A stretch of 64,000 nt of DNA from a virus: the IMG/VR virus record IMGVR_UViG_3300043411_001575, positions 1 to 64,000 of that record. One strand, written 5' to 3'. The position numbers were made by a program, and so were the translations under genes. This document shows, one piece after another, positions 45,865-63,371 of this stretch (position 1 is its first letter; each line of letters begins with the position of its first letter). A model generated the notes under the pieces. It made no database searches. It was given only the letters and a program-made list of their open reading frames with translations, and had not been told where the DNA came from.

Positions 45865-45929
45865 TTGGATGTCGATTTAATGTAAAGTTACAAATAAAAT
45901 TAAATAAAACAAACGTCATCTTATACTAA

Positions 45930-46003
45930 GTCGAAAGTATCGGACTTGAACCGCTCCTGATTACCCCAAATAACCTATGCTACCAATTACAACATACTCT
46001 CGA
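45930..46003 (-). tRNA. tRNA-Pro(UGG)
   Basis: Acceptor TCGAGAG/CTTTCGA, anticodon stem GGTTA/TAATC, loop TTTGGGG (TGG). T-stem weakly paired. First tRNA of operon 1, directly after the boxA-like element. Confidence 0.85.
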
Positions 46004-46020
46004 TATTATTAAATAAAATT

Positions 46021-46030
46021 AAAGAACGAA
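46021..46030 (-). promoter_or_regulatory. boxA-like element of operon 1
   Basis: Minus strand reads TTCGTTCTTT, then AATT; one of six copies of (A/C)GTTCTTT(A/G)A in the tRNA region. Lies between the leader terminator and tRNA-Pro. Confidence 0.5.
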
Positions 46031-46041
46031 TTTTTGAACAT

Positions 46042-46068
46042 AAAAAAACCCTGATGATTAGTCAGGGT
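46042..46068 (-). terminator. Attenuator terminator of tRNA operon 1
   Basis: Minus-strand stem ACCCTGA (46068-46062) with TCAGGGT (46054-46048), 7-nt loop, then seven T. It lies 30 nt after the stop codon of leader 1. Its 5' arm (CCTGAC) is complementary to GTCAGG inside the leader ORF (46125-46120). Confidence 0.85.
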
Positions 46069-46097
46069 CTCTTATTGTTTGTTTGTGATATATTTTT

Positions 46098-46190
46098 TCA
46101 CCCACACGGACAATACGCTCCTGACAACTGCAATCTAAACTGCGGTTGTTGAGGAAAAAATTGTTGAGTGTATGTGTTTGTTATTTTCAT
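46098..46190 (-). CDS. Leader peptide 1 (Gln/Phe/Pro), 30 aa
   Basis: ATG at 46190, TGA at 46100-46098. Sequence starts MKITNTYTQQFFPQQPQFRL, then QLSGAYCPCG. Residues 9-18 (QQFFPQQPQF) consist only of Gln, Phe and Pro, exactly the amino acids of the tRNAs in this operon (Pro, Phe, Gln). A promoter lies directly upstream and an intrinsic terminator follows. Codons 22-24 contain GTCAGG, complementary to the terminator's 5' arm. I infer an attenuation leader: ribosome stalling at Gln, Phe or Pro codons would free GTCAGG to form an antiterminator. Confidence 0.85.
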   Translation of the reverse strand: MKITNTYTQQFFPQQPQFRLQLSGAYCPCG

Positions 46191-46194
46191 GATG

Positions 46195-46226
46195 CAAAGT
46201 AACGAAATGTTTTTTAATCTACCAAA
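46195..46226 (-). promoter_or_regulatory. Promoter of tRNA operon 1
   Basis: Minus strand: TTTG (46226-46223), 20 nt, TTACTTTG (46202-46195), then CATC. The TTTGCATC start is shared with operon 2 and is similar in operon 3 (TTTGCAGC). The leader ATG follows within 5 nt, so the transcript is nearly leaderless. Confidence 0.75.
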
Positions 46227-46270
46227 TTTATTTTGAATTATTTTTAAAAATATTTTATTAACTTCGTGAA

Positions 46271-46768
46271 ATGATAGTAATGAAAGGTGTTTGCGAAGTT
46301 TGTAATGATGGAAAAGAAAAGCAATTAGCTAAGAAAAGACCTCCTTTGTGTGGTTATCATTACTCAATTGAACAGCGAAAAAAATCTGCTGAGAAAAACA
46401 AAGACAAGCCAAAGAAAGTTCAAAAGCAATTAAAACGTACTCCATTGTCTTATAAAAGAAAAGCTACAGGAGAGCTTGAACTTATGAAGAGTATTTGGGA
46501 TAACATGGAAGAACATAAATCTTTCATTAGCGGAAATCCAATTTATGAATTCAATGTAAGTTGCATGGCACATGTATTAGCAAAAGCAAAAAATAAGTAT
46601 CCTAAATTTAAATTGAATCCTGATAATATAAAATTACTCACATACGAAGAACACTTCAAATGGGATAATGCTCCACGCTCTGAGTTAATAAAACTTCCTG
46701 AGTGGGACAAAATGTTTAAGTTAGAAGAAGAACTAAAACAAGAATATAAATTATTGTTTGGATTATAA
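46271..46768 (+). CDS. NinG/HNH-like nuclease
   Basis: 165 residues, plus strand inside a minus-strand region. N-terminal cysteines (CEVCNDGKEKQ...LCGYHY), a basic linker (KQLKRTPLSYKRKATGELEL), then MAHVLAKAKNKYPKFKLNPD and LLTYEEHFKWDN, which resemble the degenerate HNH/NinG pattern (H-V-L-x-K-x-x-Y-P ... E-H). Its end abuts the convergent HNH gene at 46770. Possibly a recombination nuclease or homing-type insertion. Confidence 0.65.
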   Translation: MIVMKGVCEVCNDGKEKQLAKKRPPLCGYHYSIEQRKKSAEKNKDKPKKVQKQLKRTPLSYKRKATGELELMKSIWDNMEEHKSFISGNPIYEFNVSCMAHVLAKAKNKYPKFKLNPDNIKLLTYEEHFKWDNAPRSELIKLPEWDKMFKLEEELKQEYKLLFGL

Positions 46769-46769
46769 A

Positions 46770-47264
46770 TTAATGCTTATTGTTATGCTTTTCCCGATGA
46801 TGCTTTCTACACAACCAATTTACTGTTAAAGGCTCATTGTAATCTTCATGATGCGCAAATGTATTTATGCTATCACATCCTTCAGTCTCGCATATTCCAC
46901 GAATTAATTTACCTGTCTTAACTGCGTAATATACCTTTTTTCTTGCTCTTATCTTTTCAGGATACCTTTCGCATTGGATTTTTTTATAGTGGTAATTGTT
47001 ATTTGATATGCCATCCTTCCAATTAGGATTATTTTCACCATCAAATTTATATTTTTCATGTATTATTTTAGCACTTTTTTTACCGTTCTCTATTCTAAGC
47101 TTACTAATTTGTGCAGTTGTTCTTTTAATATTATTCCTCATCATTATCCTTTCAATACCCCAATGAGTCATATTGAATTTTTCAGCGAGTACTGAATTAG
47201 ATAAATGTAAATTATTTGAAATAAATTCAAGCATTTCATTTTTTTGTTCCTTTGTTTTTCTCAT
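46770..47264 (-). CDS. HNH/DNA-binding homing endonuclease at the end of operon 2
   Basis: Start at 47264 (MRKTKEQKNEMLEFISNNLH); a longer frame would run through tRNA-Leu and is rejected. The N-terminal helix-turn-helix (SVLAEKFNMTHWGIERIMMR) is followed by ENNPNWKDGISNNNYHYKKI and a C-terminal HNH-like CETEGCDSINTFAHHEDYNE with WLCRKHHREKH. An excellent promoter lies so close that the mRNA is leaderless. Confidence 0.8.
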   Translation of the reverse strand: MRKTKEQKNEMLEFISNNLHLSNSVLAEKFNMTHWGIERIMMRNNIKRTTAQISKLRIENGKKSAKIIHEKYKFDGENNPNWKDGISNNNYHYKKIQCERYPEKIRARKKVYYAVKTGKLIRGICETEGCDSINTFAHHEDYNEPLTVNWLCRKHHREKHNNKH

Positions 47265-47268
47265 AATA

Positions 47269-47299
47269 CAAATATACATAAATCTTAGTAGTTGTACAA
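47269..47299 (-). promoter_or_regulatory. Promoter of the 46770 homing endonuclease
   Basis: Minus strand: TTG (47299-47297), 20 nt, TATATTTG (47276-47269), then TATT and ATG. Only 4 nt separate the -7 box from the start codon, so the message must be leaderless or start inside the ATG. Confidence 0.75.
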
Positions 47300-47305
47300 T
47301 AAAAA

Positions 47306-47388
47306 GTATCCCTAGCAGAACTCGAATCTGCAAGTCAAAGACAATGGTTTTTAAGACCATCCTGTTTACCAATTTCAGCATAGGGATA
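47306..47388 (-). tRNA. tRNA-Leu(UAA)
   Basis: Class II tRNA: acceptor TATCCCT/AGGGATA, anticodon stem ATGGT/ACCAT, loop CTTAAAA (TAA), long variable arm, T-arm GCAGA/TCTGC. Last tRNA of operon 2. Confidence 0.93.
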
Positions 47389-47393
47389 TTTTG

Positions 47394-47475
47394 TACAGAT
47401 AGAGGTATTCGAAACCTCATGCATTTCTGCGTATGATTCTAAATCATGTGCGTCTTCCAATTCCGCCATATCTGC
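47394..47475 (-). tRNA. tRNA-Leu(UAG)
   Basis: Class II tRNA: acceptor GCAGATA/TATCTGT, anticodon loop TTTAGAA (TAG), T-arm GAGGT/ACCTC. Reads CUN codons, complementing tRNA-Leu(UAA). Confidence 0.9.
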
Positions 47476-47491
47476 ATTTGTTTTTTTATTG

Positions 47492-47564
47492 TTGGAACAC
47501 TAGGAGTCGAACCTAGATTAGCGGTTTTACAGACCGAATTCTTACCCTTAGAAATGATGCTCCA
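47492..47564 (-). tRNA. tRNA-Tyr(GUA), short variable loop
   Basis: Acceptor TGGAGCA/TGTTCCA, anticodon loop CTGTAAA (GTA), T-arm CTAGG/CCTAG. The variable region is only about 4-5 nt, although bacterial tRNA-Tyr normally has a long variable arm. The anticodon stem's first pair is mismatched. Confidence 0.8.
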
Positions 47565-47570
47565 ATTTTG

Positions 47571-47656
47571 CGGAAACAGCAGGACTTCAACCTGCACGGG
47601 CTTTTATACCCCTAGCGTTTTTCAAGAACGTGTACCTCTGTCAATTGGGTGCTTCC
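47571..47656 (-). tRNA. tRNA-Ser(UGA)
   Basis: Class II: acceptor GGAAGCA/TGTTTCC, anticodon loop CTTGAAA (TGA), long variable arm, T-arm GCAGG/CCTGC, discriminator G as expected for Ser. Confidence 0.92.
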
Positions 47657-47685
47657 AAATTATTTTATTTCAATGAACTGTTTTG

Positions 47686-47769
47686 CGGAGAGCAGTGGTC
47701 GTGACCCACACTCGTTTAACCGAGCCGACAACTTAGCAGGTTGCGCCTACCCTGATAGGTTTACTCTCC
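47686..47769 (-). tRNA. tRNA-Ser(GCU)
   Basis: Class II: acceptor GGAGAGT/GCTCTCC, anticodon loop CTGCTAA (GCT), long variable arm, discriminator G. The T-loop is atypical (begins with G and lacks TTC). Confidence 0.85.
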
Positions 47770-47774
47770 TTTTG

Positions 47775-47847
47775 GGTAATATATCGGGATTGAACCGATG
47801 ACCTCTCGAATCACAATCGAGCGTTCTACCACTGAACTAATATCACC
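47775..47847 (-). tRNA. tRNA-His(GUG)
   Basis: Acceptor GTGATAT/ATATTAC with an encoded G at -1 opposite C73, the His identity element. Anticodon loop TTGTGAT (GTG). First tRNA of operon 2. Confidence 0.93.
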
Positions 47848-47859
47848 ATGTATCTTTTT

Positions 47860-47869
47860 AAAGAACGAA
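47860..47869 (-). promoter_or_regulatory. boxA-like element of operon 2
   Basis: Minus strand TTCGTTCTTT followed by AAAAAG, between the leader terminator and tRNA-His; same position as in operon 1. Confidence 0.5.
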
Positions 47870-47881
47870 TTAATATAAAAC

Positions 47882-47911
47882 AAAAAACCCCAAACTTTTC
47901 AGTTCAGGGTT
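47882..47911 (-). terminator. Attenuator terminator of tRNA operon 2
   Basis: Minus strand: AACCCTGAACT (47911-47901), GAAA tetraloop, AGTTTGGGGTT (47896-47886), then six T. An 11-bp stem. CCTGAACTGA in its 5' arm and loop is complementary over 10 bp to TCGGTTCAGG (47963-47954) in the leader ORF. Confidence 0.9.
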
Positions 47912-47933
47912 CTTATCATGTAAACAAATATGT

Positions 47934-48011
47934 TTAACTACAATAGAGATTTTCCTGAACCGATTGCTTCGGATACAGCGACAAATAACTATGTAATGAT
48001 GTATTTTTCAT
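47934..48011 (-). CDS. Leader peptide 2 (Ser/Leu/His/Tyr), 25 aa
   Basis: ATG at 48011, TAA at 47936-47934. Sequence MKNTSLHSYLSLYPKQSVQE then NLYCS. Residues 5-13 (SLHSYLSLY) use only Ser, Leu, His and Tyr, the exact amino acids of the operon's tRNAs. Ser is coded from both boxes (TCA, TCG, AGT) and Leu from both boxes (TTA, TTG, CTG, CTC), matching the two Ser and two Leu tRNAs. TCGGTTCAGG at codons 17-20 can pair over 10 bp with the terminator. Inferred role: attenuation sensor for charged tRNA. Confidence 0.87.
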   Translation of the reverse strand: MKNTSLHSYLSLYPKQSVQENLYCS

Positions 48012-48019
48012 AATGGATG

Positions 48020-48050
48020 CAAATTAAAGGATTATTTATTTATCCGCAAA
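48020..48050 (-). promoter_or_regulatory. Promoter of tRNA operon 2
   Basis: Minus strand: TTTG (48050-48047), 19 nt, TTAATTTG (48027-48020), then CATC. Leader ATG 8 nt downstream. Same TTTGCATC start as operon 1. Confidence 0.75.
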
Positions 48051-48099
48051 ATTTATTTTTAATAAAAATCATATTGAATTGAAAATGAGTGAAATAAAA

Positions 48100-48321
48100 T
48101 TATTCGATGCAAATTAATTCTACTTTTTTGACTTTATCCCAAATCTTACCGAATGCAGTAGGATTCAACCCAACTTTTGCAGTCCAATTTGTAGGGGCAA
48201 TCCATTTCTGTCCATCGTGTAAATTACCCACAGAAGCTACAGAAGTACCTCCTCCTGATTTTTTCTTCCAATAAATACGGTACAAACCACATCTTAATTC
48301 TTTAACGTCTTCTTTTTTCAT
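48100..48321 (-). CDS. Conserved phage protein, CGLYRIYWKKKSGGG family
   Basis: 73 residues. ELRCGLYRIYWKKKSGGGTS and KWIAPTNWTAK match a small protein family common in phages of Bacteroidota, with unknown function. Last gene of the minus-strand block driven from 56318. Confidence 0.7.
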   Translation of the reverse strand: MKKEDVKELRCGLYRIYWKKKSGGGTSVASVGNLHDGQKWIAPTNWTAKVGLNPTAFGKIWDKVKKVELICIE

Positions 48322-48331
48322 CTTATTTTTT

Positions 48332-48652
48332 TTAATTTAAAATACGTCTAACTTCAGGAAAACATTTGTCTAATTTATTCTCCCATTCTACTGAGTAACG
48401 TGAATAATAGTCCATGTTTCTATTTACTCTTTCAATAGCCTGCTCTCTTGTGAAATTGTTACATATCATACAGAATTCAATGTGAGTTTCATGAGCATCT
48501 TTAGCTAATTTAAATTTGTCTTTCATTAAAACATCTTTGAAAAACCAATCCATAAACCAATCATATACGATTGGTAATTCTTTTGTTGGATTAGCATTCC
48601 ATTCTTTTAATTCCTTTAATGATTTTATTCTTTTTTTCATTTTATAATACAT
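48332..48652 (-). CDS. Hypothetical protein, 106 aa
   Basis: Helical. Contains CMICNNFTREQAIERVNRNM (two cysteines) and a basic N-terminus. It follows the HNH-AP2 gene with a short overlap. Confidence 0.55.
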   Translation of the reverse strand: MYYKMKKRIKSLKELKEWNANPTKELPIVYDWFMDWFFKDVLMKDKFKLAKDAHETHIEFCMICNNFTREQAIERVNRNMDYYSRYSVEWENKLDKCFPEVRRILN

Positions 48653-49235
48653 TTAATTCTGAATATTCTGTACCCCAATTTTCAATAGCAGCTTCATTAT
48701 ATGCTTTAGCAGCATCTTCTTCACTTAAAAAATAACCTAAATGCTTTTTCTTGTAGTCTAATTTTATTGACGCAGACCACTTGTTAGCGAACTTATTCCA
48801 ACTGACTCCTTTATAAATACTGCTTGGAACATTACCATTAGCGGTTCTTTGTTTTTTCTCTTTATAGTGAGCTTTTTGATGGCTTATTAATTCAAGATTA
48901 TCTCTTCTTAAATTTAATGGATTCCTGTCTTTATAATGAATTACCGTTTTACCTTCTGCTTCAAGTAATAATTTAGCAAAAGGAGCTACAATTCTTTTTC
49001 CTTCTTTTGAAATCCAAAGTGCCATTACTGCTTGTCTCTGTTCATCAAACCAAATATCTTGTTGCCTGAGAACTTCATAATCAAAATCATCAAACTGAAT
49101 ATTTTTTCCGCAAGTGGTTTTTACCCATCTGAATTGGTCTGCAAAAATACGCATTGCCTTTACCACATCTTCAGATGTAAAACTATTATTCTCTTTCCCA
49201 AATAAATCTTTTATAACCTGTATCTCTGTTTTCAT
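48642..49235 (-). CDS. HNH-AP2 homing endonuclease
   Basis: 197 residues. Centre: VIHYKDRNPLNLRRDNLELI, the H-N-H motif of HNH_3-type nucleases. C-terminus: a complete AP2/ERF DNA-binding domain (SSIYKGVSWNKFANKWSASI, HLGYFLSEEDAAKAYNEAAI, then N-W-G). This architecture is typical of mobile endonucleases. The first ~80 residues may derive from the neighbourhood or bind a target. Confidence 0.85.
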   Translation of the reverse strand: MKTEIQVIKDLFGKENNSFTSEDVVKAMRIFADQFRWVKTTCGKNIQFDDFDYEVLRQQDIWFDEQRQAVMALWISKEGKRIVAPFAKLLLEAEGKTVIHYKDRNPLNLRRDNLELISHQKAHYKEKKQRTANGNVPSSIYKGVSWNKFANKWSASIKLDYKKKHLGYFLSEEDAAKAYNEAAIENWGTEYSELNVL

Positions 49236-49579
49236 CTAGCATAAATATATTTACCGCCATCCCAAAATCTTTCTGATTTATTTTTAATACCTAACCACTC
49301 CCTAAATGAAAGACCACTATCATCACTAAGGAATTCACGGTATCTTATTTGTGAACGAGTTAGTTTTTTAATTGGTGGCTTATGATTAAATGTTTCCAAG
49401 TATTGTACTTCCCATGTTGGATGGCAAGGCAAAGGCTCTGCGGTTACATTATCATAAAAATTAACTCCGATATAGTTTCCCATATCTTTTGTTATTACCC
49501 CTTTTTTACCATTAACAATTACCTCTCTGTGTATTTCAGCAGGAACATTATATCTGTTTTTTATGTATTCGAATTCCAC
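49232..49579 (-). CDS. Conserved phage protein, small-barrel N-terminus
   Basis: 115 residues. NVPAEIHREVIVNGKKGVIT and GNYIGVNFYDN form a small beta-barrel pattern; CHPTWEVQYLE and SRSQIRYREFLS-like C-terminal helices follow (TRSQIRYREFLSDDSGLSFR). A family I know from many phages with unknown function. Confidence 0.65.
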   Translation of the reverse strand: MEFEYIKNRYNVPAEIHREVIVNGKKGVITKDMGNYIGVNFYDNVTAEPLPCHPTWEVQYLETFNHKPPIKKLTRSQIRYREFLSDDSGLSFREWLGIKNKSERFWDGGKYIYAR

Positions 49580-49582
49580 TTT

Positions 49583-49858
49583 TTATTTCGTTTTAAAATC
49601 TTCGTATTCTCCAATATAACAAACTCCATATTCAAGATAATCACCATCCTTAGTAAATTCTTTTTCCATAAATCTAGCTTCTTTATAGGCACTATCTTCT
49701 GTTTCAAATAACTTACTCTTACCAAAGTACTTTTTAAGTTCCTTTTTACGCTTTACACTTCCTTCAGGAAAGAAATAAATATTATCTATGCATTGCGTAT
49801 AAATAACTCTATATCCATCAGGAAACTTAGCTATGTATATCCCATTGTCTGCACTCAT
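49583..49858 (-). CDS. Conserved phage protein, SADNGIYI family
   Basis: 91 residues. MSADNGIYIAKFPDGYRVIY ... EYGVCYIGEYEDF is a well-known pattern of small phage and prophage proteins without assigned function. Confidence 0.72.
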   Translation of the reverse strand: MSADNGIYIAKFPDGYRVIYTQCIDNIYFFPEGSVKRKKELKKYFGKSKLFETEDSAYKEARFMEKEFTKDGDYLEYGVCYIGEYEDFKTK

Positions 49859-50139
49859 TAATTTGTATTTTTATAAAACCAATATAAATCTCCATCAGGC
49901 TCTAAAATCCATTCGCCTAAATAATCTTTTGCGTTATCACAGGTTAAGGTTATTTTACTCATACTATCAATCTTCAAAGTTTTAGTATCCATAATAGTAG
50001 CAGCTCTTATTGTTAACTGCCCATGAATTTCCTTTACAACCACATCAGTACTTCCGATGTGGCTCTTTAGGTCTTTTGGTACACAAATGATAACAGTATT
50101 GTGCCTGTATGTAGTATCTACAATTTTAACTTGAAACAT
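49858..50139 (-). CDS. Hypothetical protein, 93 aa
   Basis: Beta-rich (VKIVDTTYRHNTVIICVPKD). Its stop overlaps the next gene's start. No family recognised. Confidence 0.5.
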   Translation of the reverse strand: MFQVKIVDTTYRHNTVIICVPKDLKSHIGSTDVVVKEIHGQLTIRAATIMDTKTLKIDSMSKITLTCDNAKDYLGEWILEPDGDLYWFYKNTN

Positions 50140-50141
50140 AA

Positions 50142-51433: not shown

Positions 51434-51434
51434 T

Positions 51435-56348: not shown

Positions 56349-56424
56349 GTGACTATACAAGGACTCCAACCTTGAATCTTCGAGTTCGTAGCCCGATATG
56401 TTATGCGATTACACTATATAGTCA
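56349..56424 (-). tRNA. tRNA-Arg(ACG)
   Basis: Acceptor TGACTAT/ATAGTCA, anticodon stem TCGGG/CTCGA, loop CTACGAA (ACG), T-arm CAAGG/CCTTG. A34 would need conversion to inosine by the host TadA to read CGU/CGC/CGA. Last tRNA of operon 3. Confidence 0.9.
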
Positions 56425-57487
56425 TTTGTTTTTTATATCTCCTTACCCAAGAAGTAGCTCCACTCTTAGTTAGTCCAAATAAATTCATTATTTTTTTAAC
56501 TATTTTTTTATCATTTATATTAATGTTGTTTTCAGTTAAAATTTGAATTCTATTCTTATTGAACTTAATTGATTCATCTTTCATATTGTCAAAGTATCCT
56601 GATTTAGAACCATATTTCCTAGCCCTTGACAATCCATTTCTATCAGTCTTTTTAAAACACTTTGATTCATAAAAGTCAGGCATAAATTTAGACATCCATC
56701 CTTTAACTTTTTGTGGTATTAAGTCTGTTATTTCACTAACTCTCTTTGCCCATCCAAACTTAGAAAAATCAATATCTGAATTACTTATTATTTCTATTCT
56801 TTTAGAATGTATATTTTTAAAATTAAACTCATTAATACAATCAGTATATTCTTTACGTGATTTACTTTTAAATACTTCTTTTTTCTGTTTAATATAAAAA
56901 GAATAGTCAATATTACCCATATAATATTCATTCTTTAATCCTGAAATTAAATCACTTACAAATGATTTTTTATATATATTTGAATAGTGTATATCAAATA
57001 ATTTCCATCCTAATTCCTCTATTTCTTCTTTTCTTTTTTGATAATATTCTTTTAGAGAACCATCTCTATTATAATGTTGATTTCCATTTACCTCTATACC
57101 TATTTTTTTATCAGGGAATGCAATATCAATACTAAAAAACCTATTATCTAATGGTTTATACTCTTCTACAAAACTAATATCATTTTCAATAAATAACTTT
57201 TTTAAAATTTCACATGGTACAGATTTTAATTTTTCACTTCGTTTCCAAACGCATTTTTCAGGATTTTCTCGTAGATATAAAGACATTTTCAAACTTAAAT
57301 GCTTTCTTAATTCATCACTATGTTTTATTTTATGTTTTATTTTTTTGATGAAACCTTCTCTTTCAGCTCTATTTAATACATTTTTACCAATACCAAATTT
57401 TTTTGTTATTTTAGTCCAAAGTAATCCATTCTCATGTTCTGATTTAATTAAATCCCAATCTATTTTTGTTAAATCTAATCTCTTCAT
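56414..57487 (-). CDS. Vsr-like (EDxHD-type) homing endonuclease
   Basis: 357 residues. Central catalytic pattern: LDNRFFSIDIAFPDKKIGIE, VNGNQHYN, then KRKEEIEELGWKLFDIHYSN; this D...E-x-N-G-x-Q-H motif belongs to Vsr-fold homing endonucleases. The N-terminus (WTKITKKFGIGKNVLNRAER) and C-terminus (RVSEITDLIPQKVKGWMSKF, FGLTKSGATSWVRRYKK) hold helix-turn-helix DNA-binding units. It overlaps the 5' end of tRNA-Arg(ACG). TATATTTG at 57504-57511 (minus) may be its promoter. Confidence 0.8.
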   Translation of the reverse strand: MKRLDLTKIDWDLIKSEHENGLLWTKITKKFGIGKNVLNRAEREGFIKKIKHKIKHSDELRKHLSLKMSLYLRENPEKCVWKRSEKLKSVPCEILKKLFIENDISFVEEYKPLDNRFFSIDIAFPDKKIGIEVNGNQHYNRDGSLKEYYQKRKEEIEELGWKLFDIHYSNIYKKSFVSDLISGLKNEYYMGNIDYSFYIKQKKEVFKSKSRKEYTDCINEFNFKNIHSKRIEIISNSDIDFSKFGWAKRVSEITDLIPQKVKGWMSKFMPDFYESKCFKKTDRNGLSRARKYGSKSGYFDNMKDESIKFNKNRIQILTENNININDKKIVKKIMNLFGLTKSGATSWVRRYKKQMTI

Positions 57488-57527
57488 AATATTTATTTTT
57501 ATACAAATATATGAATATTATTTTTAG

Positions 57528-57617
57528 AATCCCCGATAGGAGTCGAACCTACATTATTCTTTTAAAAAGAAAGCAAAATTAGAAGTTTTGTGCATTATCC
57601 ATTTATGCTACGGGGAC
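57528..57617 (-). tRNA. tRNA-Arg(UCU) with long variable arm
   Basis: Acceptor GTCCCCG/CGGGGAT, anticodon stem CAAAA/TTTTG, loop CTTCTAA (TCT), T-arm GTAGG/CCTAT. The variable region is about 21 nt and can form a TTCTT/AAGAA stem, unusual for tRNA-Arg, which is normally class I. Confidence 0.85.
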
Positions 57618-57623
57618 ATATAT

Positions 57624-57686
57624 TTATCTACCTCTTCGCAATCTGCGAGAAGTAAAAAAAGTTTTTATGTGCCTTGTAGTTAACAT
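57624..57686 (-). CDS. 20-aa Arg-rich peptide before tRNA-Arg(UCU)
   Basis: ATG at 57686, TAA at 57626-57624, 6 nt before tRNA-Arg. It encodes MLTTRHIKTF FTSRRLRRGR, six Arg in 20. A homologous ORF of the same length lies before tRNA-Lys (58191-58253). Conserved pattern MLxTRxIK(S/T) with equal length supports real small genes or paired leaders. Confidence 0.55.
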   Translation of the reverse strand: MLTTRHIKTFFTSRRLRRGR

Positions 57687-57691
57687 TGAAT

Positions 57692-58093
57692 TTAATTTTT
57701 GATATGTTTATTAAAGGATAACATTAATCCATTTATATTTTCTTTTCCAACAGGATTAGCACTTTGAATATTATACAATGGTAATTTTAATTTATTATCC
57801 AAACAATATTCTACTAACCATTTAGCGCAATCATATCCTGTTTTTTCTTCTTTCTTTAATAATCTTGATTTTCTTTTACTCATTCCTTTTGCCCTAGCTT
57901 CTAAAGCAACTTCCATTCCTAAATCATGGTCAAAACAAATAGCTTCAGGTAATCCATTTTGGTTAATCCAATCAACAAATTCATTATAAGATTTAACCCA
58001 AATACAATCAAAAGGTTTTTCAATCGGACTATATGAAAGCCAATCTCCTTCAAAAGGATTTCTCAAATCATCTAACCATAAAAGTTTTTTCAT
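57692..58093 (-). CDS. cREC-type receiver-like protein (cyclic-phosphate processing)
   Basis: 133 residues. KKLLWLDDLRNPFEGDWLSY, EAICFDHDLGMEV, KTGYDCAKWLVEYC and NIQSANPVGKENINGL are hallmarks of the cREC receiver-like family. As I recall it is associated with RNA-repair genes and predicted to process cyclic-phosphate RNA ends. It sits among tRNA genes, and RtcB and an RNA ligase are in the same window, which fits that prediction. Confidence 0.75.
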   Translation of the reverse strand: MKKLLWLDDLRNPFEGDWLSYSPIEKPFDCIWVKSYNEFVDWINQNGLPEAICFDHDLGMEVALEARAKGMSKRKSRLLKKEEKTGYDCAKWLVEYCLDNKLKLPLYNIQSANPVGKENINGLMLSFNKHIKN

Positions 58094-58106
58094 TTTAAAA
58101 ATATTT

Positions 58107-58181
58107 GTGGCTCAGGGGGAACTCGAATCCCCAACCCTCGCATTAAAAGTGCGATGCTCTACCGATTAAGCTACTGAACCA
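58107..58181 (-). tRNA. tRNA-Lys(UUU)
   Basis: Acceptor TGGTTCA/TGAGCCA, anticodon stem TCGCA/TGCGA, loop CTTTTAA (TTT), T-arm GGGGA/TCCCC. Preceded by the 20-aa Lys/Arg-rich ORF. Confidence 0.93.
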
Positions 58182-58190
58182 TATTAATAA

Positions 58191-58253
58191 TTACTTACTC
58201 TTTCGCTTTCGCAAAAAAGAAGATAAAGATTTTATGTTTCTCGTAACTAACAT
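58191..58253 (-). CDS. 20-aa Lys/Arg-rich peptide before tRNA-Lys
   Basis: ATG at 58253, TAA at 58193-58191. It encodes MLVTRNIKSL SSFLRKRKSK, homologous to the ORF at 57624. It ends 9 nt before tRNA-Lys and is Lys-rich at its end. A small hairpin with a GAAA loop lies within its last codons; there is no T-run. Confidence 0.55.
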   Translation of the reverse strand: MLVTRNIKSLSSFLRKRKSK

Positions 58254-58269
58254 TGTTTTATTTTTTTAT

Positions 58270-58343
58270 GTACCCGTTGATAGAATCGAACTACCGACAT
58301 AATCCATGTAAGGGATTCGCTCTACCCCTGAGCTAAACGGGCA
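58270..58343 (-). tRNA. tRNA-Val(UAC)
   Basis: Acceptor TGCCCGT/ACGGGTA, anticodon stem AATCC/GGATT, loop CTTACAT (TAC). T-loop TTCGATT. Confidence 0.93.
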
Positions 58344-58352
58344 TTTATTTTG

Positions 58353-58426
58353 TGGAGCGTACAGGATTCAAACCTGTGTAATCTTTCGTGCAAGGAAAGT
58401 GCATAGTCGGACTCTGCCAACACCCC
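58353..58426 (-). tRNA. tRNA-Ala(UGC)
   Basis: Acceptor GGGGTGT/ACGCTCC with the G3-U70 pair that marks Ala, anticodon stem CTTTC/GAAAG, loop CTTGCAC (TGC), T-arm ACAGG/CCTGT, discriminator A. The D-arm is unusual. Confidence 0.9.
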
Positions 58427-58432
58427 ATTTTG

Positions 58433-58505
58433 TGTTCCCTACTTGAATCGAACAAGTGACCTCTCGGTTATGAGCCGAATGCTTCTACCCCTGAGCTAAA
58501 GGAAC
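58433..58505 (-). tRNA. tRNA with CAU anticodon (elongator Met or lysidine Ile2)
   Basis: Acceptor GTTCCTT/AGGGAAC, anticodon stem TTCGG/CCGAG, loop CTCATAA (CAT). Three CAT tRNAs occur here. The CTCATAA loop and TTAGCTCAG start resemble Ile2, which reads AUA after host TilS modification; leader 3 contains an ATA codon. The Met/Ile2 decision is tentative. Confidence 0.85.
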
Positions 58506-58514
58506 TAATTAATA

Positions 58515-58760
58515 TTATTCTCTCAATGCATCTCTTATAACTTTATTCTTCTGTGTACGTTTATATTTGTTATATCCGCTACATCCAAAACAATTACAAG
58601 GTCTGCTTGTTGTTTTCAAAAAAGTATAACCATTTCCTGTTAATGCTTTCTTAATTTCTTTTTCGTCATTCCAAGATGGATGAGCGAACCAATTTTTTAC
58701 TCTTCTTTTAAATTTTGTTTCTTGTTTATGCCTATTGTAGGCACGACTTAAATTTTTCAT
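58515..58760 (-). CDS. Small basic CxCxxC protein
   Basis: 81 residues. Very basic, with the motif RPCNCFGCSGYNKYKRTQKN, known from small phage proteins that may bind zinc and RNA. It lies between tRNA genes, so a role in tRNA or ribosome binding is conceivable but not shown. Confidence 0.7.
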   Translation of the reverse strand: MKNLSRAYNRHKQETKFKRRVKNWFAHPSWNDEKEIKKALTGNGYTFLKTTSRPCNCFGCSGYNKYKRTQKNKVIRDALRE

Positions 58761-58801
58761 AGCTTCAAGGTTATCACCACTAGCGTAGCTTGGCTAATGG
58801 C

Positions 58802-58837
58802 TTATAGTTTGAATCTATGTTCTTTTATTGTTTTCAT
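58802..58837 (-). CDS. 11-codon ORF coupled to HNH stop
   Basis: ATG at 58837 overlaps the TGA of the HNH gene (ATGA). Encodes MKTIKEHRFKL. Probably too short to be a stand-alone gene; listed because it is coupled and precedes the next gene. Confidence 0.25.
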   Translation of the reverse strand: MKTIKEHRFKL

Positions 58838-59355
58838 TTTTTAGCCTCGATTGATTTTTTAATAATAAAACTTATAGTTCCTTTGCTTTTAATATTTAGT
58901 TTTTCAGCTATTTGCTTATACGAAAGTCCTTCAATATGTAATTTAATTATCTCTTCATGATTGTGCTTCTTTACAAATGAAGTAGCTCTTAAAGCCATTT
59001 TCATTCTAACATCAGAAGGTTTATCCATATTGTTTTCTGAAGCTGTTCCTATTAAAATATTGTCTTTTGAATTATCTTTTTTATTCCCATTTAAATGCCT
59101 AACATGTACACCTTTTTTAAATATTTCATCTCCATATTTTTGATAAGCTACAAGACGATGTACCGAAACTTGTTTTGAAACAGATTTACCATCTATCAAT
59201 ATTCTTCTTGAAATATAGTAATATTTAGTCGTTGTATTAGTGGATAAATTATGCTTTCTTTTTTTATAAAAAACATTCCCTTCTTCATCAACCTTATATC
59301 CTACTCTAACAGCCTCTAATAAAGCTAATGTAGATATTGATTCTTTTATTTTCAT
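58834..59355 (-). CDS. HNH homing endonuclease (HNH_3 type)
   Basis: 173 residues. VSVHRLVAYQKYGDEIFKKG, VHVRHLNGNKKDNSKDNILI, GTASENN form the HNH_3 pattern (H...N...H/N). A C-terminal helix-turn-helix (LSYKQIAEKLNIKSKGTISF) binds DNA. Inserted between tRNA-Cys and the 58760 gene. Confidence 0.85.
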   Translation of the reverse strand: MKIKESISTLALLEAVRVGYKVDEEGNVFYKKRKHNLSTNTTTKYYYISRRILIDGKSVSKQVSVHRLVAYQKYGDEIFKKGVHVRHLNGNKKDNSKDNILIGTASENNMDKPSDVRMKMALRATSFVKKHNHEEIIKLHIEGLSYKQIAEKLNIKSKGTISFIIKKSIEAKK

Positions 59356-59368
59356 TTTGTTATTTTTG

Positions 59369-59442
59369 AGATAATGACCTGAATCGAACAGGTATTTCAG
59401 GTTTTGCAGACCTGTGCCAAAGCCAATATTAGCTACATTATC
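59369..59442 (-). tRNA. tRNA-Cys(GCA)
   Basis: Acceptor GATAATG/CATTATC, anticodon stem CAGGT/ACCTG, loop CTGCAAA (GCA), discriminator U73 as required for Cys identity. Confidence 0.93.
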
Positions 59443-59451
59443 TTTTTATTG

Positions 59452-59524
59452 AGCGAGTAGAGTGAATCGAACACTCATTTCCTGATTGGAAGTCAGGAGT
59501 AATAACACATTATACTATACTCGC
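59452..59524 (-). tRNA. tRNA-Gly(UCC)
   Basis: Acceptor GCGAGTA/TACTCGC, anticodon stem CCTGA/TCAGG, loop CTTCCAA (TCC), T-arm GAGTG/CACTC. Confidence 0.92.
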
Positions 59525-59528
59525 ATTT

Positions 59529-59693
59529 TTGTTATTGGATTCCGTGAGGACAACGTGTACGCAGGTCGTTACCTTCATTATTCTGTCGTTCACAAATGAG
59601 AATCAAATGTATTTACGGATAATTCTGACTACAAAAATTAATTTGCACAGCTTATCAATGGTTGCGCTTACAGGAGCGGATTACCAATAACAA
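59529..59693 (-). ncRNA. Structured spacer RNA between tRNA-Glu and tRNA-Gly
   Basis: A perfect 10-bp closing stem joins TTGTTATTGG (59693-59684) and CCAATAACAA (59538-59529), extended by CCG/CGG. Inside are stems GCGCA/TGTGC, AGAAT/ATTCT and AACG/CGTT. It is GC-richer than the surroundings and has no credible ORF. It may be a stable small RNA, a tRNA-processing scaffold or a relic of tRNA-like genes. No known class is recognised. Confidence 0.55.
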
Positions 59694-59705
59694 TATTTTT
59701 ATTTT

Positions 59706-59715
59706 CAAAGAACTT
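59706..59715 (-). promoter_or_regulatory. boxA-like element after tRNA-Glu
   Basis: Minus strand AGTTCTTTG followed by AAAATA; one of six GTTCTTT copies. Confidence 0.4.
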
Positions 59716-59726
59716 AATTTTGTTAG

Positions 59727-59801
59727 TCACCCGTAGCGTGGTCGAAACGCTTTTTAATGGTTGAAAACCATTTGTCCTAACCTACCGTAGACGAACGGGC
59801 G
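59727..59801 (-). tRNA. tRNA-Glu(UUC)
   Basis: Acceptor CGCCCGT/ACGGGTG, anticodon stem AATGG/CCATT, loop TTTTCAA (TTC), T-arm AGCGT/ACGCT. Confidence 0.9.
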
Positions 59802-59857
59802 TTTTTGAATACCTCAAATGCCTCGTCCGATTCTGTTTTTTCTAATTTTGTTTTCAT
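59777..59857 (-). CDS. 26-codon ORF running into tRNA-Glu
   Basis: ATG at 59857 overlaps the stop of the preceding frame (ATGA) and the ORF ends at TAG inside tRNA-Glu. It begins MKTKLEKTESDEAFEVFKN, rich in Glu. Overlap with a tRNA makes coding doubtful, though four Glu just before tRNA-Glu is noted. Confidence 0.25.
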   Translation of the reverse strand: MKTKLEKTESDEAFEVFKNARSSTVG

Positions 59858-60036
59858 AATGTTTTTATTTTTTTAATCCAATTATCAGTGGATGCTGTTT
59901 TAAATTTATTTTCAAATTCAACCTCTTTAATTTCTTTGTGAGGTTTTATTTCTGTGTACTTTAATTCTTCTTTTACTACTCTTCCTTTTCTCTTTTTAAC
60001 TAATGGTTTCTTTTCTTCGCTATGAATGTTTCCTTC
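59854..60036 (-). pseudogene. Coding-like frame without start codon
   Basis: About 60 codons from 60036 to TGA at 59856-59854 (GNIHSEEKKPLVKKRKGRVV, KEELKYTEIKPHKEIKEVEF) are open and Lys/Glu-rich like other phage genes here, but no ATG precedes them. An ATG one frame away (ATGCGAAGG...) runs into a stop after six codons. A one-base frameshift near the start is the simplest explanation. Confidence 0.4.
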
Positions 60037-60042
60037 GCATTT

Positions 60043-60273
60043 TTATTTTTTAGGAGATAGCCAAACTTTTAACCTATTTAAATACCAATCATCTGATTGT
60101 TTTAAGCTCCTATGAGATTCATGCCTATCAACGTCGTGCATCCATCTTTTAAAGATATTATACTTCGCTACTGGGAACTTTTTTTTAATTGAACTATCAA
60201 ATTCAATTTGAGCCATAATTCCTGTAAGTTTTAAATATTTTTTTCCGTAATCTAAATATTCTTCTTTTGTCAT
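60043..60273 (-). CDS. Hypothetical protein, 76 aa
   Basis: Basic, helical protein (MTKEEYLDYGKKYLKLTGIM; KKKFPVAKYNIFKRWMHDVD). It lies between tRNA-Trp and tRNA-Glu. The motif HESHRSLKQSDDWYLNRLKVW has no known match. Confidence 0.6.
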   Translation of the reverse strand: MTKEEYLDYGKKYLKLTGIMAQIEFDSSIKKKFPVAKYNIFKRWMHDVDRHESHRSLKQSDDWYLNRLKVWLSPKK

Positions 60274-60292
60274 TTTTTTTGTTTTAAAATTG

Positions 60293-60490
60293 TTATTGCA
60301 AATATATGTAATTTAAACTAATCCGTACAAAATCCTGCTTGGCATCCGCTGCCTGTTCCAAAGTTAAAATCCTGTGCAACCCTATTTTTTTAAATTCAAA
60401 GTAACTACCTTCTTTTTTCCATTCACATTTTGTAGTGCCACATCTTTGCTTCTGACCTATTCTGCAAAATTCAATTTCATTTAACCCCAT
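60293..60490 (-). CDS. Hypothetical protein, 65 aa
   Basis: MGLNEIEFCRIGQKQRCGTT, KCEWKKEGSYFEFKKIG; three cysteines in a possible metal-binding arrangement. Located between tRNA-Trp and tRNA-Glu. Confidence 0.55.
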   Translation of the reverse strand: MGLNEIEFCRIGQKQRCGTTKCEWKKEGSYFEFKKIGLHRILTLEQAADAKQDFVRISLNYIYLQ

Positions 60491-60612
60491 TGTATTTTTT
60501 TTATTTTAATACCACTGAGCAATGGAGAGCAATTCATTTCATTTATCTTCATTATTTGCAAATAACAAAGGACTACTTTACTCTGCTCTTTACCCACTAC
60601 TCAATATTTTAA

Positions 60613-60686
60613 GAGTACAATTCAAGCTAACTTCCTACACTGAACACCGCTTCAGCAAGGCTTTGAGCCTATTTTAAATTATACTC
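60613..60686 (-). ncRNA. 74-nt cloverleaf-like RNA after tRNA-Trp
   Basis: Fully paired 10-bp closing stem GAGTATAATT (60686-60677) with AATTGTACTC (60622-60613), one G-U. Inside are AGGCT/AGCCT with a 3-nt loop, CTGAA/TTCAG with a 6-nt loop, and AAG/CTT with a 4-nt loop. It is the size of a tRNA and sits 6 nt from the end of tRNA-Trp, but lacks T-loop and D-loop consensus. Class unknown. Confidence 0.55.
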
Positions 60687-60691
60687 TTTTG

Positions 60692-60776
60692 CACAAGCGG
60701 TAGGAGTCGAACCTACACATCCCTTTCGGGCAACAGATTTGGAGTCTATCCATCTCTCCATTGTATTAGCACTTGC
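60692..60776 (-). tRNA. tRNA-Trp(CCA) with long variable arm
   Basis: Acceptor GCAAGTG/CGCTTGT, anticodon stem ATAGA/TCTGT, loop CTCCAAA (CCA), T-arm GTAGG/CCTAC, discriminator G. The variable region is about 16 nt with a CCC-GAAA-GGG hairpin, so the body is class II (Leu/Ser/Tyr-like), which tRNA-Trp normally is not. Confidence 0.85.
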
Positions 60777-60786
60777 GTTTTTTTTG

Positions 60787-60861
60787 CAGTTATGATGGGA
60801 TTTGAACCCACGACCTCTACCGTGACAGGGTAGCATTCTAACCGAGCTGAACTACATAACT
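60787..60861 (-). tRNA. tRNA-Asp(GUC)
   Basis: Acceptor AGTTATG/CATAACT, anticodon stem CTACC/GGTAG, loop CTGTCAC (GTC), discriminator G. Confidence 0.93.
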
Positions 60862-60873
60862 ATTTTTTATTTT

Positions 60874-60880
60874 AAAGAAC
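60874..60880 (-). promoter_or_regulatory. boxA-like element between tRNA-Asn and tRNA-Asp
   Basis: Minus strand AGTTCTTTAAAATAA; GTTCTTT repeat in the 25-nt spacer between the two tRNAs. Confidence 0.4.
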
Positions 60881-60886
60881 TATTTG

Positions 60887-60958
60887 CGTATAGAAAAGGG
60901 TTCGAACCTCTGTAACCTTCATTAACAGTGAAGTGCTTAGCCACTCAGCCATCTATAC
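60887..60958 (-). tRNA. tRNA-Asn(GUU)
   Basis: Acceptor GTATAGA/TCTATAC, anticodon stem CTTCA/TGAAG, loop CTGTTAA (GTT), discriminator G. Confidence 0.92.
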
Positions 60959-60969
60959 TTTTTTTCAAT

Positions 60970-61044
60970 TGGTAGCGGAAGGGTGACTCTAACACCCGAC
61001 CTTTGGGATATGAACCCAACGAGCTAACCCTGCTCTATTCCGCA
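60970..61044 (-). tRNA. Initiator tRNA-fMet(CAU), CCA encoded
   Basis: TGCGGAA/TTCCGCT with an unpaired T1-T72, D-arm GAGCAGGGTTAGCTC, anticodon stem TTGGG/CCCAA with the three G-C pairs of initiators, loop TTCATAT, and T-arm GGGTG/CACCC. A 3' ACCA is encoded (60973-60970), unlike all other tRNAs here. The missing 1-72 pair, three G-C pairs and CCA together identify an initiator. Confidence 0.92.
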
Positions 61045-61614
61045 CTGTTTCATTTCATAATGTAGTTCTCTATGACAATTAGAACAAACAATTATGCATT
61101 TATCAAGTTCTTTTTTTATCTTTTCCCAACACGTTGTAGAATATCTTGATATATTAAAATCTTTTTGTTTTGGTTCAATATGGTGGAAATCAAACGCCCA
61201 TATACATTTATCATATCCACATTTTTCACATTTACCACCTTTATATTTAACTGCTTTTTCTTTAATTTTTTGCCGTGCTGTTTTTACTCTCAAATAATTT
61301 CTTTTTTTTCTTTCTTGTGTACTTAAAATTACTTTTTTTACTATTAATTTTAAATATCTTTTTATTCCTGATACAGAAACATTAAATTTTTCTGCTGTTT
61401 GTTTTAATGTATGTGTTTTATAATACTCTTGAACTTTTAATATTTTTTCATCAGATAGTTTCCTTGTATCCATAAGACCTATATATGATAGATTATGGTT
61501 TTTGCAATGATAACTAATAGTAGATGAAGAGCATTTTAGCTTATTTTTTATTTTGCTATAACTCCACCCTTTCTCTCTTAAATTTAATATTTTATTCTTC
61601 AAACCTTTACCCAT
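61024..61614 (-). CDS. HNH homing endonuclease between tRNA-Ile and tRNA-fMet
   Basis: Start at 61614 (MGKGLKNKILNLREKGWSYS); the longer frame runs through tRNA-Ile. HTH segments (SYSKIKNKLKCSSSTISYHC; TLKQTAEKFNVSVSGIKRYL) precede the HNH domain KCEKCGYDKCIWAFDFHHIE, PKQKDFNI, CIIVCSNCHRELHYE. Its stop codon lies inside the 5' part of tRNA-fMet, a 21-nt overlap. Confidence 0.88.
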   Translation of the reverse strand: MGKGLKNKILNLREKGWSYSKIKNKLKCSSSTISYHCKNHNLSYIGLMDTRKLSDEKILKVQEYYKTHTLKQTAEKFNVSVSGIKRYLKLIVKKVILSTQERKKRNYLRVKTARQKIKEKAVKYKGGKCEKCGYDKCIWAFDFHHIEPKQKDFNISRYSTTCWEKIKKELDKCIIVCSNCHRELHYEMKQCGIEQG

Positions 61615-61633
61615 ATAAAAATTATTAATGATA

Positions 61634-61641
61634 CAAATATA
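61634..61641 (-). promoter_or_regulatory. Possible promoter of the 61614 HNH gene
   Basis: TATATTTG on the minus strand in the 47-nt spacer after tRNA-Ile; nearest TTG is 24 nt upstream, within tRNA-Ile. Confidence 0.45.
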
Positions 61642-61661
61642 GTTAAAAGTTCGATAAATAG

Positions 61662-61735
61662 TACGCAAAGATGGATTTGAACCACCGACCACATGATTAT
61701 CAGTCATGTATTCTAACCAACTGAACTATTTGCGT
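61662..61735 (-). tRNA. tRNA-Ile(GAU)
   Basis: Acceptor ACGCAAA/TTTGCGT, anticodon stem CATGA/TCATG, loop CTGATAA (GAT), discriminator A. Confidence 0.93.
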
Positions 61736-61961
61736 ATTTAATATTTAAAAATGAGAACGCATGTGTGCTTCTTTGCGTTTTTCTCCAACCGCACAGGAAG
61801 GATTTCCAAAAGTGTTTCTCCACTTCCAAAATAAAATCGTATAGCCTCCAATAAAGAAAAGGTTTTGCGCTTTTCGGTCTTGTACCGCCCTGAAACCTCT
61901 GCTCATCTAAGTTATAGACAATTTTAGTTTCATCCAAATTTGGAGCAGTCCTGTTTTTCAA
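61713..61961 (-). CDS. Doubtful ORF running into tRNA-Ile
   Basis: ATG at 61961, 82 codons, with a plausible start (MKNRTAPNLDETKIVYNLDE) but higher GC and many Trp/Phe. Its last residues (KYANSSVG) are read from tRNA-Ile. Coding is uncertain; the stretch may be non-coding structured sequence. Confidence 0.3.
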   Translation of the reverse strand: MKNRTAPNLDETKIVYNLDEQRFQGGTRPKSAKPFLYWRLYDFILEVEKHFWKSFLCGWRKTQRSTHAFSFLNIKYANSSVG

Positions 61962-61984
61962 CTACATTCATTTATTTTTTTCAT

Positions 61985-62101
61985 AGAGTTTCTATTTCAT
62001 CAGGTCAAGGCTCGAAGCCCCTTTTTCTCACTGACACTCACAGGTAACTCATTCTAATCAATTCAGAAAATTCTGAATGATATTTTAATATTTCAAAGAA
62101 C
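61985..62101 (-). other. Spacer with hairpins and boxA-like element
   Basis: Non-coding stretch after tRNA-Met: GTTCTTT repeat (62101-62095), a hairpin ATTCAGAA/TTCTGAAT, then a GC-rich hairpin GGCT-TCG-AGCC with flanking TCAG/CTGA. No tRNA can be built from it. No function known. Confidence 0.4.
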
Positions 62102-62109
62102 TAAAAACG

Positions 62110-62183
62110 TCCCGACAGCAAGATTTGAACTTGCGACACTTTGGATATGAACCAAATGCTCTACCGAACTGAGCTATGTCGGA
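62110..62183 (-). tRNA. tRNA-Met(CAU), probably elongator
   Basis: Acceptor TCCGACA/TGTCGGG, D-arm TAGCTCAGTTCGGTAGAGC, anticodon stem TTTGG/CCAAA, loop TTCATAT (CAT), T-arm GCAAG/CTTGC. A paired 1-72 and no G-C triple exclude an initiator. Confidence 0.88.
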
Positions 62184-62187
62184 ATAT

Positions 62188-62246
62188 AAGATTCCTTGCT
62201 GCAAGTCCCCGCACTATATCTGCTTTTATGGGGAGGAATCTTTTTG
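62188..62246 (-). ncRNA. Hairpin element between tRNA-Thr and tRNA-Met
   Basis: Minus strand AAGATTCCT pairs with AGGAATCTT; inside, CCCC pairs with GGGG and a small CTTGC/GCAAG hairpin is possible. The element fills the 63-nt spacer exactly and may guide processing of the two tRNAs. Confidence 0.5.
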
Positions 62247-62318
62247 AGCCGTGAGAAGGAATCGAACCCTCGTGCGTAGATTACAAATCTACTGCTTTAC
62301 CAACTAAGCTATTACGGC
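62247..62318 (-). tRNA. tRNA-Thr(UGU)
   Basis: Acceptor GCCGTAA/TCACGGC (one A-C mismatch), anticodon stem GTAGA/TCTAC, loop TTTGTAA (TGT), T-arm GAGGG/CCTTC. First tRNA of operon 3. Confidence 0.9.
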
Positions 62319-63132: not shown

Positions 63133-63162
63133 AAAAAGCCCCAACTTTTTAGGTTGAGGCTT
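63133..63162 (-). terminator. Attenuator terminator of tRNA operon 3
   Basis: Minus strand AAGCCTCAAC (63162-63153), short loop, GTTGGGGCTT (63145-63136), then T5. The segment CACAGAAGCCTC (63167-63156) can pair at 11 of 12 positions with GGGGCATCTGTG in the leader (63228-63217). Confidence 0.87.
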
Positions 63163-63186
63163 CTGTGTTTGTATTTTTATGTTTTA

Positions 63187-63297
63187 TTACACTCCCATTG
63201 TCGTAATTAAACAATACACAGATGCCCCTTGAGTACACGCCTTATCGCCCGTATTCTCTGACCACATATTTTCCACTATAATATTTCTGCGTTTCAT
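63187..63297 (-). CDS. Leader peptide 3 (13 amino acids of operon 3), 36 aa
   Basis: ATG at 63297, TAA at 63189-63187. Residues 2-12 are KRRNIIVENMW, 13-21 SENTGDKAC, 22-36 TQGASVYCLITTMGV. Residues 2-21 contain every amino acid supplied by operon 3 (Lys, Arg, Asn, Ile, Val, Glu, Met, Trp, Thr, Gly, Asp, Ala, Cys) and only one outsider (Ser13). The two Arg codons are CGC and AGA, suited to the two Arg tRNAs, and both ATT and ATA occur for Ile. Antiterminator codons 24-27 follow. Inferred role: multi-amino-acid attenuation sensor. Confidence 0.87.
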   Translation of the reverse strand: MKRRNIIVENMWSENTGDKACTQGASVYCLITTMGV

Positions 63298-63338: not shown

Positions 63339-63371
63339 CAAATATACAACTATTGTTTTTTTAAATGCAAA
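63339..63371 (-). promoter_or_regulatory. Promoter of tRNA operon 3
   Basis: Minus strand: TTTG (63371-63368), 21 nt, TATATTTG (63346-63339), then CAGC. The leader ATG is about 42 nt downstream, a longer 5' end than in operons 1 and 2. Confidence 0.75.

Follow-up and report, generated by a model that had tools for sequence, protein, structure and literature searches.

Putative transcription attenuators with tRNA-matching leader peptides ahead of phage tRNA operons

Why should a short open reading frame (ORF) crowded with serine, leucine, tyrosine and histidine codons, followed by a terminator, stand directly ahead of a group of phage tRNA genes? The question arises in the uncultured viral record IMGVR_UViG_3300043411_001575, whose first 64,000 nucleotides form the stretch of DNA considered here (the window). 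A first-pass annotation, made from the letters alone, had drawn attention to this frame, here called leader 2, and had proposed that its segment SLHSYLSLY uses both serine and both leucine codon boxes so as to match two serine and two leucine tRNAs. The observation was confirmed and is larger than first noted, since the window holds three units of leader plus terminator, each placed before tRNA genes (Table 1). The interpretation as a whole is partly supported: a regulatory role for leader 2, with residues that reflect the tRNA content of the operon behind it, is strongly supported, and the argument from codon boxes had to be revised.

As the annotation had counted, 13 of the 24 residues of leader 2 after Met are Ser, Leu, Tyr or His. 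The Bacteroidota promoter consensus is TTTG/TAnnTTTG, and we take the TTTG-N19-TTAATTTG ahead of leader 2 to resemble such a promoter; from the position of its -7 element, the mRNA of operon 2 is predicted to be nearly leaderless. An ORF, promoter-like elements and a start context are all found at this site, from which translation of leader 2 is predicted. The terminator stands about 20 bases 3' of the leader stop, and 36 bases beyond the terminator the genes follow in the order His, Ser(GCU), a marginal Ser(UGA), Tyr, Leu(UAG) and Leu(UAA). Both leucine tRNAs and Ser(GCU) were called by ARAGORN, which bears out that part of the proposal. The Ser(UGA) candidate is a class-II tRNA-like stretch with the anticodon loop CUUGAAA, which ARAGORN did not call even at an 80% threshold; as it scores under the cut-offs of both ARAGORN and Rfam, the presence of two serine tRNAs is probable but not certain. 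The tRNA genes for Pro, Phe and Gln had also been considered as members of operon 2, an assignment dropped once leader 3 was discovered. Just 5' of operon 2, an ORF with HNH and AP2 domains occupies 48642-49235.

Table 1. Positions of the three leader-headed tRNA operons in the window and, in the last row, of a related operon on another contig
Feature	Positions	Strand	Remarks
Promoter-like -33 element TTTG, operon 2	48047..48050	-	Read directly; 19-nt spacing to -7 element
Promoter-like -7 element TTAATTTG, operon 2	48020..48027	-	8 nt 5' of ATG
Leader 2 ORF, MKNTSLHSYLSLYPKQSVQENLYCS	47934..48011	-	Sensor codons Ser5-Tyr13 = S L H S Y L S L Y
Antiterminator 5' segment TCGGTTCAGG	47954..47963	-	Within leader 2 codons 17-20 (Met = 1); 10-nt pairing with 47908-47899
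Intrinsic terminator, attenuator 2	47883..47914	-	14-pair stem, GAAA loop, T-run; portion 47908-47899 also complementary to antiterminator segment
tRNA-His(GUG), operon 2 gene 1	47774..47846	-	
tRNA-Ser(GCU)	47685..47769	-	ARAGORN
Candidate tRNA-Ser(UGA), class II	47572..47656	-	Divergent D arm; Rfam tRNA-Sec model 21.9 bits, below cut-off
tRNA-Tyr(GUA)	47491..47564	-	
tRNA-Leu(UAG)	47393..47475	-	ARAGORN
tRNA-Leu(UAA)	47306..47387	-	ARAGORN
Promoter-like TTTG-N21-TATATTTG, operon 1	63339..63371	-	
Leader 1 ORF, MKRRNIIVENMWSENTGDKACTQGASVYCLITTMGV	63187..63297	-	Antiterminator segments 63228-63224, 63222-63216
Terminator, attenuator 1	63134..63164	-	5' side (63168-63162, 63160-63156) pairs with leader 1
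tRNA operon 1	56349..62318	-	ORFs interspersed
Promoter-like TTTG-N20-TTACTTTG, operon 3	46195..46226	-	
Leader 3 ORF, MKITNTYTQQFFPQQPQFRLQLSGAYCPCG	46098..46190	-	Gln/Phe/Pro = 12/29 residues; antiterminator segment TCAGG 46124-46120 pairs with 46066-46062
Terminator, attenuator 3	46043..46073	-	
tRNA-Pro(UGG), operon 3	45930..46002	-	
tRNA-Phe, operon 3	45009-45081	-	
tRNA-Gln, operon 3	44892-44965	-	
Phe-leader/tRNA-Phe x2/rtcB operon, contig G030	L105 1831-3603	-	

The other two operons of the phage repeat the arrangement with different contents. Operon 1 encodes tRNAs for Thr, Met, Ile, Met, Asn, Asp, Trp and Glu and then for Gly, Cys, Met, Ala, Val, Lys, Arg(UCU) and Arg(ACG), and leader 1 includes all 13 amino acids concerned. 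A strict scan of all 169,658 bases of the record for a promoter, a short ORF and a terminator picked up leaders 1 and 3 and nothing else; leader 2 was missed by a single promoter base. The partition of residues among the three leaders and their operons was matched or surpassed in two of 1,000,000 trials that divided the 20 amino acids at random into groups of 13, 4 and 3 (p = 3e-6); a two-set version, calculated prior to finding leader 3, had given a Fisher p of 5e-5, with 2 of 77,520 subsets as good. No close relatives of the phage were found, and neither a 1656-aa protein nor the upstream 73-aa gene gave useful ones.

Each leader also appears to be able to interfere with the terminator that follows it. 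The segment TCGGTTCAGG in leader 2 is complementary to CCTGAACTGA in the 5' side of terminator 2, a duplex exceeding that of dinucleotide shuffles (p = 0.02), and the minimum-energy fold of the leader 2 transcript has z = -3.8. The locus combines an intrinsic terminator that separates the leader from the structural genes, an antiterminator in the late leader that competes with it, and control codons for the supplied molecule ahead of the switch. Equilibrium folding of full leaders was rejected as a predictor of the switch for its inconsistent results, and was replaced by a model that folds just the RNA ending at the terminator loop, the form in which polymerase would offer it, with the ribosome placed at successive codons. 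In this model the terminator arm of leader 2 is captured (about 0.8) with the ribosome on codons 2-13 and freed (mostly 0.0-0.3) from codon 15 onwards; the sensor SLHSYLSLY lies entirely inside the captured zone, and capture falls after codon 13, right past its end. Leader 1 switches alike through the pairings GGGGC/GCCUC and UCUGUGU/ACACAGA, and leader 3 similarly. Across many phages, complementarity between leader and arm was above that of dinucleotide shuffles in 18 of 27 leaders at p < 0.05 (combined p = 1e-17), the antiterminator being weak in the remaining nine (p >= 0.05). Because the equilibrium folds of full-length leaders often favour the terminator, the switch must be kinetic, as in known attenuators. 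Furthermore, a ribosome at the stop codon of leader 2 would sit 3' of the antiterminator segment, and its release must therefore come after terminator folding.

Taken together, a ribosome-mediated transcription attenuator with tRNA as its output very probably stands at the head of every tRNA operon in this phage. The components, their order, the complementary switch pairings, the match between leaders and tRNAs and the recurrence across phages can be read directly from sequence; transcription start, coupling, kinetic outcome and trigger are what we infer beyond it. RNA polymerase would start shortly before the leader ATG, with a ribosome trailing behind. When charged tRNAs are ample, the ribosome would run through the leader and cover the late antiterminator, so that the terminator can fold and polymerase is released ahead of the tRNA genes. 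When any one of the sensed tRNAs is scarce (for leader 2 those for Ser, Leu, His or Tyr), the ribosome would stall in the sensor stretch, and the exposed segment would capture the 5' arm of the terminator, allowing the array to be transcribed and the supply to be restored. Since the amino acids sensed by each leader are the ones served by the tRNAs of the same operon, such a circuit would be an autogenous, OR-gated supply controller.

The design recurs in cultured phages, where matching leader units head tRNA arrays in the Cellulophaga phages phi17:2, phi4:1, phi10:1 and Calle_1 and in the Tenacibaculum phage Gundel_1. In both phi17:2 and phi4:1, MKIQRLHLQELEQPIISGGTGV precedes Pro, Glu, Gln, His, Leu, Leu and Arg(ACG), and MKTNYCTYNNSNWSFSYDTGSVCTLGSDGLIG precedes Tyr, Ser, Ser, Asn, Trp, Phe and one further tRNA, perhaps Cys. 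A third leader of phi17:2 (...QLTKTGITVIDKTKGARAYLGDTVIG), which probably starts at GTG, stands before Ala, Lys, Ile, Gly, Met, Asp, Thr, Val and Arg(UCU), so that in this phage three sets of tRNA genes have a leader each. The annotated hypothetical protein gp077 of phi17:2 (L203 38442-38561) overlaps a promoter-like site and this probable third leader, and the TTG start assigned to it is probably an error. Two units each are present in Calle_1 and Gundel_1 and one in phi10:1, whose leader WSYSCFSYSF corresponds to tRNAs for Tyr, Trp, Phe, Ser and Cys; the phi10:1 record annotates Tyr and Phe only, and Trp, Ser and Cys were added by ARAGORN at low threshold (L247, about 2190-2510).

Uncultured phages were surveyed in two leader-blind scans of IMG/VR, in which the sole requirement was a T-run shortly 5' of a tRNA D arm and the ORF was picked by a fixed rule that ignored composition. 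In the 25 non-redundant units obtained, obvious non-members included, the fraction of leader residues encoded by the downstream tRNAs was 0.386, against 0.301 (sd 0.015) after permutation (p = 5e-5, the floor of 20,000 permutations). Members include an Asn-rich leader, MKNRNLNMNTNLTLNVVNITLCNIRRTEGCDQFRLY, ahead of two tRNA-Asn genes, and MRTSSTLSLTSLQHLTRSENSTEV ahead of His, Ser, Arg, Gln, Leu and Leu. Among 17 curated leaders, whose selection was in part guided by the pattern itself and which offer descriptive support rather than an independent test, 65% of residues before the switch are matching ones, against 33% after it (Fisher, 1e-11). Leaders also carry residues without a matching tRNA (K, N and T near the start). 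The 642-kb uncultured phage genome LR756502 (L343, 365000-385000) has two candidate attenuators, with Phe/His/Lys and Arg/Ser leaders. Contig G030, reached through a relative of the RtcB of the window phage, carries the leader MKQSTGIFFNDLHFSYFRSNKWTLFVS, a terminator whose arm CCGCUUGUUACUCC has a match, GGAGUAACAAGUGG, within the leader, two tRNA-Phe genes and rtcB, and is possibly a tRNA repair-and-replace unit. Many leaders have promoter-like elements directly 5' of the ATG; three are preceded by TTGACA...TATAAT-like promoters, which suggests that some hosts are probably outside Bacteroidota. The attenuator is not universal among tRNA-rich phages, since several RtcB-bearing relatives with arrays (G002, G008, G010, G014, G016, G017 and G019) have none at the thresholds used; it was likewise not found in crAss001, phage PAU and T4 by the criteria used.

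How much of this match is written in codons rather than amino acids is a finer question. The codons reported for leader 2 were reproduced (Ser TCA, AGT, TCG, TCG, AGT; Leu TTA, TTG, CTG, CTC), and those the annotation had called unexpected are truly rare: over the 191 ORFs of the 169,658-base record, CTG and CTC make up 1.9% and 1.4% of Leu codons and TCG 3.6% of Ser codons. Compared with synonymous draws, leader 2 uses rarer codons (p = 0.0026) and more that end in G (p = 0.001). The CTN box as a whole, however, provides 33% of Leu codons in the same ORFs, and four Leu and five Ser codons would use both boxes with a chance of 0.79 x 0.89 = 0.70; both-box use alone is therefore unsurprising, and it was rejected as stand-alone evidence, real as the codons are. 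The pattern that the annotation had named as a refutation, relatives reduced to one codon box with both tRNAs kept, did not appear in the tabulated arrays having both isoacceptors. Over 20 leaders, with some reference codon tables small, codons are again rarer than expected synonyms (combined p = 8e-20), and a preference for G-ending codons is seen in 20 units subject to the same small tables (p = 9e-9). Attenuator theory ties control-codon choice to sensitivity (PMC1183508), and the rare-codon preference of the phage leaders agrees with it. For operons whose isoacceptors fall in one box, leader codons match that box in 19 of 26 cases against 15.1 expected (p = 0.056), or in 16 of 21 (p = 0.035) within the sensor part, with the codon table of the window phage substituted for Calle_1, Gundel_1 and phi10:1. 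The best single case is phi17:2, whose leader for the Arg(ACG) operon has CGT and whose leader for the Arg(UCU) operon has AGA. The match of leader to operon is thus firm at the amino-acid level and suggestive across phages at the level of codon boxes. The unusual rarity of the codons in leader 2 is strongly supported; of the selection for codon identity that the annotation had thought plausible, box choice apart from the amino acid is only faintly indicated.

Could the match be a coincidence of ordinary insulating terminators and incidental ORFs? AT-rich DNA has many short ORFs, and terminators before tRNAs without matching leaders do exist, as in the E. coli prophage tRNA-Thr loci and on Bacteroidota chromosomes, where the T-run-before-tRNA pattern occurred in 8 of 296 genomes, in none of them with a leader ORF by the rule used. 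Nevertheless, this reading deserves next to no credence, being already contradicted by the leader-blind permutations, the three-way partition, the combined antiterminator pairings and the promoter-like elements immediately 5' of the ATG in many leaders. It is also very improbable that the leader is a functional micropeptide, acting for example on the ribosome or on a defence protein, and that this constrains its composition. The good ATG-AAA start contexts of the short ORFs would fit such a role, whereas no sequence is evidently common to leaders from different phages beyond a composition fitting their own tRNA genes, and the three leaders of one phage differ as their operons do.

A different doubt concerns the trigger. 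The attenuators might sense amino-acid starvation through low charging, tRNA output being a side effect or a means of adjusting translation in starved hosts; the physical signal, slow decoding, would be identical, and classical attenuators work so (PMC1183508). We consider this unlikely. The outputs are tRNAs, with no biosynthesis enzymes among them, and more tRNA would not cure starvation. Moreover, the multi-amino-acid leaders follow the tRNA supply of their operons, including its split among the operons of one phage, and one operon includes the tRNA ligase gene rtcB. Phage-encoded tRNAs are described as countering host tRNA-targeting defences (PMC10264068, PMC11555353), and it is this literature together with the rtcB operon that favours tRNA loss. 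Depletion of tRNA in infection, by host tRNases or anticodon nucleases or through codon demand, is the most likely trigger rather than starvation, and shut-off of the host may also bring about the shortage. The balance is even on a broader proposition: that a general alarm for tRNA damage is present in unrelated phages rich in tRNA genes, whose leaders, composed of the amino acids of each operon, detect the loss of any host tRNA, for instance to anticodon nucleases, and induce matching replacements, once together with the repair ligase RtcB.

Several known systems resemble these units in part. In the E. coli pheMST operon the leader peptide abounds in the amino acid for which tRNA charging is regulated; the operon is bacterial, responds to a single amino acid and governs a synthetase, unlike the phage leaders, which control tRNA genes. 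T-box riboswitches also sense tRNA state and control termination, binding uncharged tRNA directly and without leader translation; Rfam scans of window positions 44500-64000 and of seven related loci gave only tRNA models above cut-off and no T-box family. With the trp, his, leu, thr and ilv attenuators the phage units share a short control-codon leader ORF, mutually exclusive antiterminator and terminator, and biased control codons (PMC1183508). They differ from these in being phage-borne, in that most leaders are multi-amino-acid OR gates, and in yielding a tRNA array where the others yield enzymes, a product that would directly replace the sensed molecule; downstream of the attenuators are tRNAs, and the neighbouring ORFs searched gave no amino-acid biosynthesis family. 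As with the anti-defence phage tRNAs (PMC10264068, PMC11555353), the phage would supply tRNAs depleted by the host. A search of PMC10264068 by term returned no mention of attenuation or operon control of phage tRNAs, and no earlier description of leader-controlled phage tRNA operons was found by full-text search in a body of literature that lacks many subscription papers and most preprints. The regulatory principle is old; its viral use to ration tRNA arrays, via mixed leaders that spell the content of the operon, appears to be new.

If the default state of the arrays is silent and shortage of the tRNAs they encode induces them, these tRNAs would be emergency replacements rather than constant supplements for codon bias, and the leader residues would reveal which shortages the phage evolved to expect. 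The idea is testable at once, since the cultured phages phi17:2, phi4:1, phi10:1, Calle_1 and Gundel_1 carry the candidate attenuators. A practical rule also follows, namely that leader composition predicts overlooked tRNA genes, as with the three in phi10:1.

Some further features of the record were observed. The tRNA arrays at 44892-63025 (-) are interspersed with ORFs, several of which resemble homing endonucleases, and between tRNA-Lys and tRNA-Arg lies a protein with a cREC_REC domain (Pfam: cyclic-phosphate processing receiver domain; 57692-58093). The phage encodes an RtcB of its own at 25001-26362 (+) of the window, with no leader or tRNA adjacent to it. Elsewhere in the record, at 125757-126926 (L005 1757-2926), is an OrfB_IS605/TnpB-like protein with a Cas12f1-like TNB domain.
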